Positions 3,637 through 56,588 of a stretch of 56,588 bases of DNA are shown piece by piece. Position numbers and translations under genes: made by a program. How positions within the stretch are numbered: position 1 is the first letter of the stretch; each line of letters starts with the position of its first letter. The notes beneath the pieces were generated by a model, which searched no databases, was not told where the DNA came from, and was given only the letters and a program-made list of their open reading frames with translations. The DNA is from a virus: positions 1 to 56,588 of the IMG/VR virus record IMGVR_UViG_3300043409_001689; one strand, written 5' to 3'.

Positions 3637-4368
3637 CTACACAGTTGCACTCATACCCAACATTCTTAACATCATTTCACGCATCTCGGGCGTTAATTCT
3701 ACTTTAGACGTGTCAATGCTTTCTAAAGTCTTAAGAACTTCTCCCGCTTTCTTAACGCTTTGGGCAGCGATTTTTGCTTCCATTTCAGCCTTCCGCTCCG
3801 CATTGCTTTTTGCAAGTTCTACAAAGTTGTTTGCACGTGTGAACGTGTCACTAATCAGCTTTTCCGCTTTTGCGGTGGCTTCGCTTATGATGCGCTCCGC
3901 ATCAATGGCAGCTTTTTCGTTCATCTCATTAGCTTTTTCCGTGGCTTGTTCAACCGTTAAAGTAGTACGTGAAACAATCGTTTCAGAATTGTATGTAGGT
4001 CTTTCTGCACCGTTGAAATAACGGAACTCCTTTGAAATACGGTCTTTCAAGAACTCTGGAAAGTCTTTTGTAGCTTTTCTCACCCATTCCTCTTTTGGAA
4101 TTTCTCTCGTTTGGTAGTCTTCAAAAATAGCCTTTAGGCGAGACTTTTGAGTGACTTTTTCAGCACGCTCCGTTGCGCTTTCAATAGGTTGCAAAGGTGT
4201 TTCAGCCGTTGGTAAGTCTTCTGAATAGTCAACCGTCAAATCTTGGTTAGCTTCGATAATTGTCTCAATGTCCTCACCCATTAAAAGGCGGTCAGCGAAT
4301 GACACCTTTGAAGTTTTAGAGGCGTTGTTTGTTGTTGTTGTTGCTGGAGATACGATAGAATTTTTCAT
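3637..4368 (-). CDS. Coiled-coil hypothetical protein
   Basis: 243 aa. The first ~110 residues are acidic, low-complexity and Thr-rich. Residues ~135-220 are an Ala/Glu/Lys-rich heptad region (ATEKANEMNEKAAIDAERII and similar), so a long coiled coil is likely. The order and composition resemble scaffold or structural helper proteins, but the gene is monocistronic, leftward and far from the head genes. It has its own promoter at 4435-4466, the leader motif fused to its ATG (TTTTAACGAAAATG), and the hairpin array behind it. Probably strongly expressed. Function unknown. Confidence 0.7.
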   Translation of the reverse strand: MKNSIVSPATTTTNNASKTSKVSFADRLLMGEDIETIIEANQDLTVDYSEDLPTAETPLQPIESATERAEKVTQKSRLKAIFEDYQTREIPKEEWVRKATKDFPEFLKDRISKEFRYFNGAERPTYNSETIVSRTTLTVEQATEKANEMNEKAAIDAERIISEATAKAEKLISDTFTRANNFVELAKSNAERKAEMEAKIAAQSVKKAGEVLKTLESIDTSKVELTPEMREMMLRMLGMSATV

Positions 4369-9331: not shown

Positions 9332-9478
9332 AGAATTGCTTTTCGCTGGATTGTAACAGAATTTTTTAAAAGTCCTATCTAAAGACTTTTAACCTAAACT
9401 CCGAAGCCTTCGGGCGGATGTCTTGCGGAAAGCATTAATTCAAAAGCCTAACTACTCATAATAGTTAGGCTTTTTTAC
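9332..9478 (+). ncRNA. Candidate ~145-nt small noncoding RNA
   Basis: The segment between the promoter at 9297-9327 and the terminator at 9442-9474 has no ORF longer than six codons from ATG. It can fold into three stems: TTAAAAGTC/GACTTTTAA (9366-9374 with 9384-9392), CCGAA-GCC-TTCGG (9401-9413) and the 13-bp terminator stem. Promoter, compact structured body and intrinsic terminator together are the layout of a stand-alone sRNA gene. The target or function is unknown. Confidence 0.65.
9442..9474. terminator. Strong bidirectional terminator
   Basis: A 13-bp perfect stem (AAAAGCCTAACTA / TAGTTAGGCTTTT) with a 7-nt loop and a T-run on the plus side. It ends the small RNA and, on the other strand, the leftward block that stops at 9481. 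Confidence 0.9.
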
Positions 9479-13956: not shown

Positions 13957-14015
13957 TTAACCCTTGTGGGGGCTTTTAATATTATTGTTTAACGAAAATT
14001 CTAAAATTTATAAAG

Positions 14016-40872: not shown

Positions 40873-40904
40873 ATTATTTTTTTTAACGAAAATTCTAAAA
40901 ATCT

Positions 40905-47614: not shown

Positions 47615-48325
47615 TTATTTAGACATTAATTCTTGTATATACTTAGGATAAACCCCTCTTCTTATACAAGAAATTGAATTTTTTGAACAATTGTACATTG
47701 ACGCTAATTGTGAAATAGTAAACTTGTAACTACAAATAGTCTCTATGTCTGAAATTGACAACTTTTTGTTTTTTGTTGTAAACTTTTCATCATTAGGATT
47801 ATCTGTTTTAAGAACAGAAGCCCATTGCTTGCCATTTCTAATATAGAAATACGTTTGATATGCTCCACCGAACATTTTTGAAAACTCTTGGTCCGTATAG
47901 TTTTCAAGATTATTTTTTATCCAAATTATATCACTTACACTAAGAAAAGAACTTGCTCGTTGATATCCCTTTAAAATATTTTCTCTTCCTTTTTCTTTTT
48001 TGTCAAGCATATTGTCTTTATGCGTACCTAATGACAAATGATTTACATTTATACAGCTTGCGTTATCGCAAGAATGCATGACACATAAACCTTTTTCTAT
48101 CTTTCCGATAAACTCTTGATAAACCTTCCTATGTGCAAAATGATGCTGTAATTTATTGTTTTCGGAAGTTGAAAACATAATATACCCATCGCTTCTTGGC
48201 TTGTTTGATATTACTAAATGACAGTTTGAAATTGGGTCTATATTACAAATAACAGGTTTTTTTTTGTTTATTATGTAATAATAGGCTTTATCTTCTTTTT
48301 CTACGTAGCTACTTTTAGCTGACAT
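47615..48325 (-). CDS. HNH homing-type endonuclease
   Basis: 236 aa. The HNH core is KGLCVMHSCDNASCINVNHL followed by SLGTHKDNMLDKKEKGRE, with H at the start, N and H in the middle. C-terminal repeats of helix-turn-helix type (ISDIETICSYKFTISQLASM then YNCSKNSISCIRRG) fit the NUMOD/DNA-binding tail of homing enzymes. Free-standing, between the Rieske-like and ASCH genes, with an exact leader motif at 48336-48347. Probably a selfish element rather than a phage function. Confidence 0.85.
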   Translation of the reverse strand: MSAKSSYVEKEDKAYYYIINKKKPVICNIDPISNCHLVISNKPRSDGYIMFSTSENNKLQHHFAHRKVYQEFIGKIEKGLCVMHSCDNASCINVNHLSLGTHKDNMLDKKEKGRENILKGYQRASSFLSVSDIIWIKNNLENYTDQEFSKMFGGAYQTYFYIRNGKQWASVLKTDNPNDEKFTTKNKKLSISDIETICSYKFTISQLASMYNCSKNSISCIRRGVYPKYIQELMSK

Positions 48326-50072: not shown

Positions 50073-50097
50073 TAATCGCTATTTTAAAGAAATAAAA

Positions 50098-50123
50098 AAC
50101 GCCATACTTTTTTGCATGGCGTT
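50098..50123 (-). terminator. Terminator of the replication operon
   Basis: AACGCCAT (50098-50105) pairs with ATGGCGTT (50116-50123); on the minus strand T6 follows. Confidence 0.85.
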
Positions 50124-50155
50124 CCGAAAAAAAATTATAATCCCATGAACACTAA

Positions 50156-50852: not shown

Positions 50853-51617
50853 TTATATTTTTCTAAAAGAATCTCCTTCAAATAAAATTATATTAAACAT
50901 TTCATTGAAGCGGTCTAATACCCTTTCGTCAAAATGAACTTTCAGTCCGTTATTGTCAAGGTTAGAACTTACAATAGTGATTTCTCCAAAGTTCACGAAC
51001 TTATTGTAGCGATTCCTAAAAATCACTTCCATTGGTCTTATCTCGTTTCCGTAAGACTTTACAAAAGGCTCTGAAAAACCTACATCATCAAAAGCCCTAT
51101 TCTTGGTATAGTACGGAGTCAAATTAAAGTCTTTGTTAAATTGTACTTCATCAAAAATTGTCGGGGCTTCATTAAAAAGAAAGTGCTTATTTAATTTCAA
51201 AGTTAAAGCTGTCTTTTGTAAGGCTTTCAAGATAGCCGTCTTACCAGTTCCTTTAGGTCCATAAAGGAATAATCCTTTCCTTAAAGATATAGGCTTTAAA
51301 TCAATCATACCCCAAGGGGTTTCCGCTTCGGAAGAATCTATAAGCCATTGAATTAGTTTTGGTAATACCTCTTTCAAGAAAGAAGTCATAACAACATCGG
51401 GCTTGGTCTTTTGAACTTCCGCTTTGTAGTAGTTCCAAAAGACTTCCCGAGCAGTTGCATAATCCACGGTTATAGCTTCCGCGGGATTTTTTAGACTTTC
51501 AATGTACTTTATCGAACTTTCGGAAGGCTGAAAGTCTGATTCAACTAATTTCCGTTTTCTTTCGTAAGGGTTATTCCCTTGTATTGAGCGTAGATGCTCT
51601 AATGAAACATTATCCAT
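50853..51617 (-). CDS. DnaC/IstB-like AAA+ helicase loader
   Basis: 254 aa. Walker A GPKGTGKT at 120-127; a Walker B-like region AFDDVGFSEP; sensor I in ITIVSSNLDNNGL; arginine region ERVLDRFNEMFNIILFEGDS at the end, as in DnaC-type loaders. The N-terminal ~110 residues may bind helicase. With the initiator gene directly upstream it suggests recruitment of the host DnaB helicase, since no helicase of that kind is encoded here. Exact leader motif at 51627-51638. Confidence 0.82.
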   Translation of the reverse strand: MDNVSLEHLRSIQGNNPYERKRKLVESDFQPSESSIKYIESLKNPAEAITVDYATAREVFWNYYKAEVQKTKPDVVMTSFLKEVLPKLIQWLIDSSEAETPWGMIDLKPISLRKGLFLYGPKGTGKTAILKALQKTALTLKLNKHFLFNEAPTIFDEVQFNKDFNLTPYYTKNRAFDDVGFSEPFVKSYGNEIRPMEVIFRNRYNKFVNFGEITIVSSNLDNNGLKVHFDERVLDRFNEMFNIILFEGDSFRKI

Positions 51618-51642
51618 GATGCTTAGAATTTTCGTTAATGAA

Positions 51643-52794
51643 TTAAGTGAATGATGTAAACGCCACAGTCTTAGCCGTGTAAACAGGCATAGCCGAAGGT
51701 CTTGAACCGTTAGTGTGCTTTTTTACTAAAATAATAATTGCGCTAAACTTTGAAAATAACATACTTGGAGCGAAGTTGTCTTTCATCCATTTGTCTTTCA
51801 AGGCACTCGCCATGAATGTAGAAAAAGTTTCTTTAACCTTTTCGTCTGAAACGGTTTCGTACTTAGTATAAAGTAAATTAGTCAACTCTTCCCGAACTTT
51901 CTTAATCGCAATTAATTCTTTCCCTTGCCACAAAAAGGCATCCCCATCGGAAAGAGTCTTGTAAGTATTTGAAAAGGCGTCAATGAAGTGCTGGTGCAAG
52001 TGCTTTGACCTATCCCCTACTTTTAGGGCTTTTATAGCTTCGTCCGTTTTGGCTTCTTTAGGCTCAATTACTTCAATAGGCTTAGTTTGACTTTCAAACG
52101 AAGGCGCGGGGCGCAATGGCGTGTCTTGCTCGCTTTCAGTTTGTAAGTCAACTAAGTCATTCAAAGGATTTTCTTTTTCATCGGGGGCTTCGACGATAGG
52201 CGAAGCAAGAGACTTATTGTTATTAGACTTAGGTAATTGGTATAAGACTCCTCGGTCAATATTGACCGTGTCAATCACGTTTGACACGGTCAAATTGTTC
52301 CAAGTAACTTGGTCATTCGTGTCCGTGTCATTTTCATCTAACTTGGTCATTCGTGTCCGTGTCCTGCAAGGTGATTGAATTGCTTGACGTTTAATCTTCA
52401 ATGCTTCTTTAGCTTCCTTAGAATCTTTATCAAATTCAATGAGTAAATCCGCTTTACTTGTAAAGCAATAATAAGACTTCTTGAGTGATTGAGAATTTGG
52501 GTGTTTTTCTACAAGTCCTTGCTTTATAAGTTCTTCAATTATTCTTCTTACTTTTTTTGACAGAGCTTCTGTTGTTATGTCTTCTGAAAAAAGAATAGGC
52601 AAGTTTTCAAGAATAAGGCTATGTGAAAACCAAAAATATAGCTTTTCGTTTTCCTTAAATGATTCTTTTTGAAAAGATGTGACTCCGATTTTGGTTTGCA
52701 TCATATTCATTACACACGCAGCTTCTAAGGAAACTTTAATTCCATGCGCTGAATAAGCAGCTTGGTTAATGTATATATTAGCTAAAATAGGCAT
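51643..52794 (-). CDS. Replication initiator-like protein with winged-helix N-terminus and embedded repeats
   Basis: 383 aa. Residues ~55-115 (ENLPILFSEDITTEALSKKV, RRIIEELIKQGLVEKHPNS) form a winged-helix DNA-binding domain. The middle (~140-230) is low complexity. The C-terminal ~120 residues are helical, like a DnaD-type helicase-interacting domain (LHQHFIDAFSNTYKTL). The DNA encoding residues ~145-180 carries a cluster of palindromes and direct repeats (52253-52363). The next gene downstream is the DnaC-like loader. Together this fits a phage O/P-like initiation pair. Confidence 0.7.
   Translation of the reverse strand: MPILANIYINQAAYSAHGIKVSLEAACVMNMMQTKIGVTSFQKESFKENEKLYFWFSHSLILENLPILFSEDITTEALSKKVRRIIEELIKQGLVEKHPNSQSLKKSYYCFTSKADLLIEFDKDSKEAKEALKIKRQAIQSPCRTRTRMTKLDENDTDTNDQVTWNNLTVSNVIDTVNIDRGVLYQLPKSNNNKSLASPIVEAPDEKENPLNDLVDLQTESEQDTPLRPAPSFESQTKPIEVIEPKEAKTDEAIKALKVGDRSKHLHQHFIDAFSNTYKTLSDGDAFLWQGKELIAIKKVREELTNLLYTKYETVSDEKVKETFSTFMASALKDKWMKDNFAPSMLFSKFSAIIILVKKHTNGSRPSAMPVYTAKTVAFTSFT
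52253..52363. repeat. Origin-like palindromes and iterons inside the initiator gene
   Basis: CGGTCAATATTGACCG (52253-52268) is a perfect palindrome. GACCGTGTCA (52264-52273) is inverted as TGACACGGTC (52282-52291). A 25-bp direct repeat beginning TAACTTGGTCATTCGTGTCC occurs at 52305-52329 and 52339-52363, 34 bp apart and thus in different reading frames. Shared core: CGTGTC/GACACG. Confidence 0.68.
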
Positions 52795-52800
52795 TGTTTA

Positions 52801-53436
52801 TTATTTAAAATTTTCGTTAAAATATTTTTTAGTATAATTTAAGTCTTCAATACTTAATTCAAACCACTCACCTCCTACTCTTTTATTGTCAAAAAAGGCG
52901 TGTAGTTCTTTTTCGTCTTTTAATGTTCCATTAAATTGACTAACTAATTGTATTGTTGGATTTGAAGTCAAATGGCTCTTTAATCGTGAATCCATATTAG
53001 TAGTAAAACCAATTTTATGTAAACCATTGGATTTAAGCAAGTAGATTACTCCGCTTGTATATTCAATAGGTTTTATTTTAACTTTCTCGTTTGTTTTAAG
53101 CGTTTTAATGTCATTAAATGAATAACAAGACTTTCCAATTTGTTGAGATTTTGGATAAAAGTTAATAAGACCTACTTTGTTCAACTCAATCATAAGCCTA
53201 CTTATTCTTTTTGCTATACTTTGTTTTGTTATGTCTTTTCTAAAAATAATTGGTATTTTTTTAAATAACATATTGTAATTGATGTGATAGTATGCAACTC
53301 CTTCATGGTCTATTTTTTCAGTAGAAGATAATTTAGATATTTTTAAAGCTGAATCATAGACTATTATAGCTTCAATAGGCAAACCTAAATTTTTGCTACT
53401 CCAAAAGTCTTGGTCAATAGTTACTTTTTTTGACAT
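52801..53436 (-). CDS. Winged-helix protein fused to a T5orf172/GIY-YIG nuclease domain
   Basis: 211 aa from the ATG at 53436; upstream in-frame starts lie before the leader motif (53451-53462) and terminator. Residues ~50-110 (KKIPIIFRKDITKQSIAKRI, LMIELNKVGLINFYPKSQQI) are clearly related to the initiator's winged helix. Residues ~125-205 form the GIY-YIG-type T5orf172 domain: SGVIYLLKSNGLHKIGFTT, then SRLKSHL and EKELHAFF. The last codons (NENFK stop) are written by the leader motif of the initiator gene. Confidence 0.75.
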   Translation of the reverse strand: MSKKVTIDQDFWSSKNLGLPIEAIIVYDSALKISKLSSTEKIDHEGVAYYHINYNMLFKKIPIIFRKDITKQSIAKRISRLMIELNKVGLINFYPKSQQIGKSCYSFNDIKTLKTNEKVKIKPIEYTSGVIYLLKSNGLHKIGFTTNMDSRLKSHLTSNPTIQLVSQFNGTLKDEKELHAFFDNKRVGGEWFELSIEDLNYTKKYFNENFK

Positions 53437-53726
53437 AGGATTGATTTTAAAATTTTCGTTAAATAAATAATTTGTAAAGATATGTGAGTTTTCCATGTGT
53501 TTGCATAGGTGCATAAAAAAACCCTCGAAAAAAGAGAGGGTGGAAAGCACGAATAAGGAAAGCTAATAAAAAGACCTTATGCGTACAAACTCTCTTTTTT
53601 CAAGGGTACTCCTTGTAAAGAAATTGAAATAAAACAAGGACGCTTGAACACTTCCAAATGTCTTTGTTTATTAGCTAATTAAAAAGGCTTAATTACTATT
53701 GTTCCACCATCAATAATTAAGTGACA
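53437..53726 (-). ncRNA. Structured leader with attenuator-like alternative hairpins
   Basis: The transcript from the promoter at 53727-53758 has ~285 nt before the first gene. It contains CAAGG-AGTAC-CCTTG (53615-53601), an 18-bp helix formed by 53607-53590 with 53538-53521 (one G-U pair), and a terminator (53541-53515) that shares its 3' strand with that helix. The helix and terminator cannot form together. No ORF of useful length from ATG. Confidence 0.62.
53515..53541 (-). terminator. Terminator in the leader
   Basis: ACCCTC (minus) pairs with GAGGGT, 9-nt loop, then T7. It lies between promoter and gene, so it must be read through for expression. Confidence 0.8.
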
Positions 53727-53758
53727 CAAAGATAAATCAAGCCTTTTTAAAAACCAAA
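53727..53758 (-). promoter_or_regulatory. Bacteroidota-type promoter of the replication operon leader
   Basis: Minus strand: TTTG (53755-53758), 20-bp spacer, TATCTTTG (53727-53734). It stands directly behind the stop of the 53761-54000 gene. AAAAAGGCTT/AAGCCTTTTT inverted arms surround the -7 region. Confidence 0.8.
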
Positions 53759-56269: not shown

Positions 56270-56301
56270 ATTAAAAGATATACAAAAGTATATCTTTTAA
56301 T
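56270..56301. promoter_or_regulatory. 32-bp perfect palindrome, candidate operator
   Basis: ATTAAAAGATATAC-AAAA-GTATATCTTTTAAT, two perfect 14-bp arms around the -7 box of the helicase promoter. A dimeric repressor bound here would block the promoter. Confidence 0.7.
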
Positions 56302-56422: not shown

Positions 56423-56588
56423 ATGGTGTATTTGCAACTTTTGGAAGTTGCAAATATTTGCGGTGAAAACTGCTGTACTCGCTGCAAGTGTGGTTTATCA
56501 TTAATTGAAGCTAACGTTTGCCCCCCCCCCCCCCCCCCCCCCCGTTTTGGGGGGGGTGTGGGGGGGGGGGGGTTTTGGGTGGCAAAAA
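56423..56588 (+). CDS. Broken Cys-rich ORF at the window end
   Basis: Starts MVYLQLLEVANICGENCCTR then CKCGLSLIEANVC before the poly-C tract, after which the frame is meaningless. A perfect hairpin (TTTGCAACTT-TTGG-AAGTTGCAAA, 56431-56454) lies in its first codons. It may continue as the partial gene at 3-320 if the genome is circular. Low confidence because the end is unreliable. Confidence 0.3.
   Translation, partial: MVYLQLLEVANICGENCCTRCKCGLSLIEANVCPPPPPPPRFGGGVGGGGFWVAK
56521..56588. other. Poly-C/poly-G tract, probable assembly artefact
   Basis: 23 C followed by long G-runs broken by TTTT. This is unlike the rest of the AT-rich sequence and typical of low-quality read ends. Confidence 0.7.

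Follow-up and report, generated by a model that had tools for sequence, protein, structure and literature searches.

A structured, terminator-bearing leader RNA predicted ahead of the replication genes of a phage record

Introduction

Terminators in the leaders of initiator genes are known from the plasmids pT181 and pIP501, whose rep genes are under antisense-controlled attenuation. The HMP-PP (thiS motif) riboswitch has its aptamer embedded in a terminator: its predominant predicted fold is a single long terminator stem against a U-run, and the other fold, which may include a pseudoknot, can form only while the final bases are still inside the polymerase (PMC6478431). In Flavobacterium, structured 5' regions and leader-peptide attenuators precede host genes such as those for amino-acid biosynthesis (PMC9723704). 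Among phages and satellites, PLE, P4, P1, and N15 are known for untranslated leaders or regulatory RNAs; non-coding 5' regions suspected of cis control are plentiful ahead of the gene clusters of satellites, and RNAs of the P4 type can pair with the leaders of genes (PMC7567579).

The locus described here lies ahead of the replication gene block of a Bacteroidota-type phage, and the likeliest of the readings weighed below, with somewhat less than an even chance, is that of a terminator-gated 5' leader of the replication operon. If read-through is regulated, the onset or the dose of the phage's own DNA replication would be governed by RNA structure and not by a repressor, and this in Bacteroidota, a phylum with little-studied phage gene control; if the RNA is free-standing instead, it would be a new, unassigned phage small RNA.

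The record and its replication genes

The window, i.e., the whole stretch of 56,588 nucleotides that was analysed, is the virus record IMGVR_UViG_3300043409_001689, in which the structural genes lie for the most part on the plus strand, while the minus strand carries a DNA-metabolism gene block, including an HNH homing-endonuclease-like gene (47615-48325, minus strand). The record is probably incomplete since a near-identical contig, L025, continues about 1 kb past its left end; at its right end, the C and G runs of 56540-56588 look like a sequencing or assembly artefact. The leader elements and the replication genes are all read on the minus strand, and the genes are as follows:

52801 to 53436, minus strand: first gene, an initiator-like N-terminal domain fused to T5orf172/MUG113 (GIY-YIG-like)
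51643 to 52794, minus strand: presumed replication initiator, with N-terminal domain homologs in L047, L048, and TCUEAP2
50853 to 51617, minus strand: DnaC-like helicase loader (PHROG 50, 1.4e-12)
50096 to 50125, minus strand: terminator closing the replication gene block, a 12-bp stem with a T-rich tail

The C-terminal fusion domain of the first gene matches Pfam MUG113 (2.6e-10) and T5orf172 (4.9e-8), while its N-terminal domain has 28% identity with the N-terminus of the presumed initiator, of which it is a second copy. The homolog in L047 in turn matches "replication initiator A family" proteins of phages C1_85S2P and PDS1. The first-pass annotation had suggested that the leader could time or dose an initiator and a loader; the presumed initiator and the loader are the second and third genes of the order, and the T5orf172/MUG113 fusion stands first.

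The ATG of the first gene is at 53436, and its open frame extends upstream to 53562. The choice of start is indicated by a sequence motif:

53447 to 53462, minus strand: copy of the start-codon motif, TTAACGAAAATTTTAA, indicating the ATG at 53436

The 16-base motif TTAACGAAAATTYTAA has 17 copies in the window against 0.1 expected, most of them 0-9 nt ahead of an ATG and on both strands (sites include 53447-53462, 52805-52820, 51623-51638, 40883-40898, and 13989-14004), and was not found in the other phages compared. It looks like a phage-specific translation start element or another start-site signal. The phylum Bacteroidota relies little on Shine-Dalgarno pairing.

Promoter and start of the leader RNA

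Promoters were scored as matches to TTTG-N-TAnnTTTG with a spacer of about 20 nt, the -7 consensus of the Bacteroidota promoter being taken from a published study (PMC9723704). The best site at this locus is the following:

53727 to 53758, minus strand: Bacteroidota-type promoter, TTTG (53758-53755), N20, and TATCTTTG (53734-53727), with 10/10 consensus bases

The start of the leader RNA is predicted near 53721. Sites with 10/10 bases and a spacer of 19-21 number 12 on both strands of the window, most of them ahead of genes. Comparable intergenic 10/10 promoters (spacer 19-20) stand 19-61 nt before their genes, e.g., those starting at 56277, 49817, 11012, 4429, and 2957, whereas the leader promoter is separated from the ATG by 285 nt without a gene. 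A consensus promoter had already been annotated here in the first pass, within an element drawn from 53437 to 53758. The promoter is indeed a full match, of the Bacteroidota type, which the sigma-70 scan does not list; the lower limit agrees with the first gene start, while 53758 belongs to the -33 box and lies upstream of the RNA.

The -7 box of the leader promoter falls within the terminator of the upstream operon (53683-53746, minus strand; AAAGGCUU...AAGCCUUU, -20 kcal/mol). An RNA started near 53721 lacks the 5' arm of that terminator and is therefore not stopped by it.

On the opposite strand, a promoter-like site at 53471-53503 scores 9/10 and reads TGTGTTTG, without the A of the -7 box. 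Together with the position ahead of initiator genes, this site would suit antisense-RNA copy control from the plus strand, as in plasmid attenuation, and the position would equally suit a hairpin of a replication origin or another element acting at the DNA level. The site lacks the consensus TA, however, and no iteron array was found in the leader, which leaves these possibilities very unlikely.

Predicted fold of the leader RNA

The RNA from the predicted start to the U-run is far more stable than its shuffles (z -5.88, also reported as -5.9), none of 200 being equally stable. Its fold is made up of a 5' hairpin (P1), a second hairpin (H2), one small hairpin, and a big stem, composed of helix L and an inner helix (I), that ends on the U7 run; a further hairpin (E) appears in partial transcripts.

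53515 to 53721, minus strand: predicted structured RNA of about 207 nt, start to U-run, MFE -59.4 kcal/mol
53688 to 53721, minus strand: P1, 5' hairpin with arms 53721-53711 and 53698-53688, pair probability about 0.97
53632 to 53669, minus strand: H2, second hairpin, in both the MFE and the centroid fold
53593 to 53623, minus strand: E, early hairpin, in the lowest-energy fold of partial transcripts ending at 53590-53530
53547 to 53586, minus strand: I, inner helix of the big stem, GUACG-AUAAGG with CCUUAU-CGUGC around a 16-nt loop (53574-53559), in both the MFE and the centroid fold

In hairpin E, CAAGG (53615-53611) pairs with CCUUG (53605-53601), extended by UUUCUUU/AAAGAGA, and the 5' arm of L is thereby masked. 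The same CAAGG has a second possible partner in CCUUG at 53639-53635.

The 18-bp helix and the terminator

The 3' end of the leader is dominated by helix L, which is composed of 17 Watson-Crick pairs and one G-U pair:

53590 to 53607, minus strand: 5' arm of L, the inner 16 pairs at a probability of at least 0.997
53521 to 53538, minus strand: 3' arm of L, ending flush on the U-run
53515 to 53521, minus strand: U7 run, as read in the sequence
53521 to 53541, minus strand: T, short terminator hairpin, 53541-53536 with 53526-53521, 6 bp, 9-nt loop, -7.8 kcal/mol alone

With up to one mismatch allowed, the longest inverted repeat measures 18, while shuffles reach at most 16 (0/500 as long). For each of three assumed start sites, L has a pair probability of about 1 whether folded at 15, 25, or 37 C. 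Since GAGGG and the T7 run (53526-53515) close both L and T, the two are mutually exclusive. T is missing from the equilibrium ensemble; the whole fold has -49.7 kcal/mol with T vs -59.4 with L, which is thus favoured by about 10 kcal/mol. This phage typically has terminators with a short loop and 11-14 bp, at about -14 to -19 kcal/mol, so T is weak in comparison with them, and in a simple terminator scan the short hairpin alone was not above chance (seven found, 4.9 expected). L together with I is the most stable hairpin flush on a U-run in the window among the matches listed.

An antiterminator must leave the U-run without a stem, usually by holding the 5' arm of the terminator. L takes up the entire 3' arm and stops exactly at the U-run; it is therefore itself a terminator-shaped stem (about -36 kcal/mol) and not an antiterminator. 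The first-pass annotation had described three hairpins with mutually exclusive pairing, namely, an early CAAGG/CCTTG hairpin, the 18-bp helix, and a T7 terminator sharing its 3' arm with that helix, and had read them as attenuation or a riboswitch. The helix was found exactly at 53590-53607 with 53521-53538, the sharing of the 3' arm was borne out, and the CAAGG sequence does pair with either of its two CCUUG partners, the one at 53605-53601 masking part of L. What did not survive is the role of the helix as the alternative to the terminator, as it pairs the terminator's 3' arm up to the U-run; the attenuation logic keeps its 285-nt structured leader, its terminator, and its exclusive pairings. 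Classical attenuation, with the short T7 hairpin kept open by the 18-bp helix acting as antiterminator, would agree with the mutual exclusion of L and T, but a helix flush on the U-run is expected to terminate by itself and leaves no free 3' arm, and this account is hardly credible. As for a riboswitch, no curated Rfam 15 covariance model matched at the gathering score in the leader, and the weak matches obtained at relaxed thresholds were far below it.

Loop-loop complementarities and a candidate read-through fold

Two complementarities, PK1 and PK2, are the two best loop-loop pairings of the fold, PK1 being the best:

53702 to 53708, minus strand: partner A of PK1, GGUGGAA in the P1 loop, complementary to 53545-53539
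53539 to 53545, minus strand: partner B of PK1, UUCCACC in the big stem, adjoining L and overlapping the 5' arm of T
53667 to 53676, minus strand: partner A of PK2, AGCUAAUAAA, between P1 and H2, its last bases shared with H2
53561 to 53570, minus strand: partner B of PK2, UUUAUUAGCU, in the loop of I, a perfect 10-nt complement of 53676-53667

In tests that were post hoc, being chosen after inspection of the sequence, the level of PK1 was reached in a fraction of 0.001 of letter shuffles and in 0/500 refolded dinucleotide shuffles, and PK1 and PK2 together in 0/2000 and 0/500, respectively. Counts alone were used from the refolded shuffles, as unpairable loops return a large number that makes the mean summed loop energy meaningless. 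PK2 partly follows from a 19-nt direct repeat that contains a palindrome. The loop-loop complementarities are good but not independent evidence for a compact fold.

Pairing of the P1 loop with 53545-53536 covers the 5' arm of T, and E covers most of the 5' arm of L, so that a fold with both leaves the U-run without any stem. Computed without pseudoknots, no fold has a lower energy than the stem-free one when the transcript ends at 53536-53526, and L overtakes it at 53524. This fold is a plausible read-through state, and the decision of such a switch would possibly fall within the last few bases before the U-run.

Such elements bear on a simpler account, in which the leader is a plain constitutive terminator with a leftover leader, lowering read-through by a fixed factor or insulating the genes from the upstream operon without any switch. 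The terminator shape of L, the only state populated at equilibrium from 15 to 37 C, agrees with this account, as does the long terminator (53746-53683) in which the upstream operon also ends here; however, neither E, nor the P1-loop complement, nor a 100-nt structured 5' part would be needed. It comes third in likelihood and is rather improbable.

Read-through or a separate operon promoter

Whether the replication operon has a separate promoter or is reached by read-through is the main point dividing a gated leader from a free-standing RNA. Between the U-run and the ATG, no promoter scores above 8/10, and the leader promoter is the only strong one seen before the replication genes. The best candidate there, TATG-N21-TATCTTTA, scores 8/10 with a start near 53470, and scores of at least 8/10 arise 0.3 times per 80 nt in the window. 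As this is chance level, the operon probably depends on read-through.

The main rival takes the RNA of about 207 nt for a free-standing phage small RNA that has a promoter and a terminator to itself and acts in trans, while the operon uses the weak promoter near 53470. The compact fold, its two extra loop-loop contacts, and the very strong terminator would all suit such an RNA, and with transcription of the operon beginning near 53470, its leader would be about 34 nt long, a length typical of the phage. The same phage also has another apparent unit of promoter, RNA, and terminator at 9333-9476, which suggests that it can make free-standing RNAs. Opposed to this are the weakness of the operon promoter, whose 8/10 is not unusual by chance, and the lack of extended complementarity to other sites in the window and of an Rfam match; the free-standing RNA is thus a possible reading, albeit a doubtful one.

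The unit at 9333-9476 (plus strand) is an apparent free-standing non-coding RNA right after the terminase gene, with a 10/10 promoter and a start near 9333. It has a rod-like fold with paired ends (z -5.6) and a strong terminator of 12-13 bp, with no coding frame behind it. It had no Rfam match and was not seen beside the terminase of distant relatives.

Search for related leaders

Several searches for relatives of the leader gave no homolog. Blastn in phages and plasmids returned only short, chance-level matches; a search of IMG/VR with the exact 18-mer found no homologous leader; and the spacing pattern of PK1 had 15 matches in IMG/VR, none with a terminator or similar sequence. Searches of IMG/VR and GTDB genomes with the neighbouring proteins (first gene, loader, initiator, terminase, and helicase) gave terminase relatives, and in these neither a loader homolog nor a leader homolog was found. 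Related loci scanned for long leaders behind 10/10 promoters held no similar case.

A similar layout is found in L048 (IMGVR_UViG_3300007790_000812), which has a distant homolog of the initiator N-terminal domain. The 180-nt gap (3797-3976) ahead of its initiator contains, in addition to a 9/10 promoter and a 5' hairpin, a stem on TTTTTTGTTTTT (T6 run) that lies about 14 nt upstream of the initiator ATG. The loop of the 5' hairpin, GCAUCUCAC, is complementary over all 9 nt to GUGAGAUGC, which lies in the loop of the terminator-like stem; among shuffles, 0.06% contain a perfect 9-mer with as many G and C. The fold of this leader is mildly better than that of shuffles (z -2.45).

In L047, TCUEAP2, C1_85S2P, PDS1, AS73P1, P2559S, and TJE1, the initiator directly follows the previous gene. 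BKO1-3 has an annotated 174-nt gap before the initiator, which may be a wrong start call, and in Versailles, whose loader is related, the gap measures about 48 nt. As eight phages with related initiators lack such a leader, the layout is not a general feature of these initiators. That the two leaders represent a new switch type in Bacteroidota phages, in which a 5' hairpin loop kisses the interior of a terminator stem and thereby gates the initiator operon, with L048 as a second member by architecture and without sequence similarity, is an unlikely proposal.

A terminator-gated leader as the preferred reading

The promoter match, the fold, the helices, the loop complementarities, and the order of stabilities are computed features of the locus, and by sequence and predicted fold it has a promoter, a leader, and an intrinsic terminator before the coding region, as a transcription attenuator would. 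That termination occurs, is partial, and is regulated is what we infer, and the terminator probably lets only part of transcription through.

In a terminator-gated leader, RNA polymerase would start near 53721 at a strong host-type promoter, and the nascent RNA would fold P1, H2, and E. The P1 loop could then bind 53545-53539, hiding the 5' arm of T, while E would hide the 5' arm of L. Once 53526-53521 emerge, L would take over and bring a compound stem of 29 bp up to the U7 run; the bulk of the transcripts would end at about 53515, with a minority reading on into the T5orf172-fusion, initiator, and loader genes. A majority might read on if the early fold were maintained by a bound protein, ribosome, or small molecule, or simply by the speed of the polymerase or a phage antitermination factor. 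The outcome would be a low or delayed supply of replication proteins.

The 285-nt untranslated region behind a 10/10 promoter, the stability of the fold and of L, the loop complementarities, the energies of the partial transcripts, and the L048 layout, with its 9/10 promoter, T6-run stem, and 9-bp loop complement, speak for this gated leader. The strong preference for L speaks against it, as the RNA may always terminate, and so do the lack of any homologous leader in the searches and the eight phages with related initiators but no such leader. No ligand, leader peptide, or regulator was found for the leader. A leader peptide was considered and rejected, there being no ATG-started frame longer than four codons and no start motif; P1 contains a four-codon ATG frame, and 53678-53577 is an open frame of 33 codons that has TTG/GTG starts but lacks a start motif.

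Comparison with known systems

The leader resembles the HMP-PP riboswitch in that its predominant predicted fold is an extended terminator stem on a U-run and, if it switches, in a late decision window. Unlike that riboswitch, it is about three times as long and precedes phage replication genes, not thiamin genes; with no Rfam match at the gathering score, it is not assigned to that class. With the structured 5' regions of Flavobacterium, it shares the promoter type and the position of a structured 5' region before a coding unit, whereas, unlike the Flavobacterium attenuators, it has no ATG-started leader peptide longer than four codons. With the satellites, it shares a non-coding 5' region ahead of a group of genes, but no antisense partner was found for it; there was no C4 match at the gathering score and no extended complement elsewhere in the window, so a C4 or P4-type immunity RNA is not indicated. 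Unlike pT181 and pIP501, it has no convincing antisense promoter, the best plus-strand site being the 9/10 match without the A of the -7 box; as in these plasmids, a terminator stands in the leader ahead of initiator genes.
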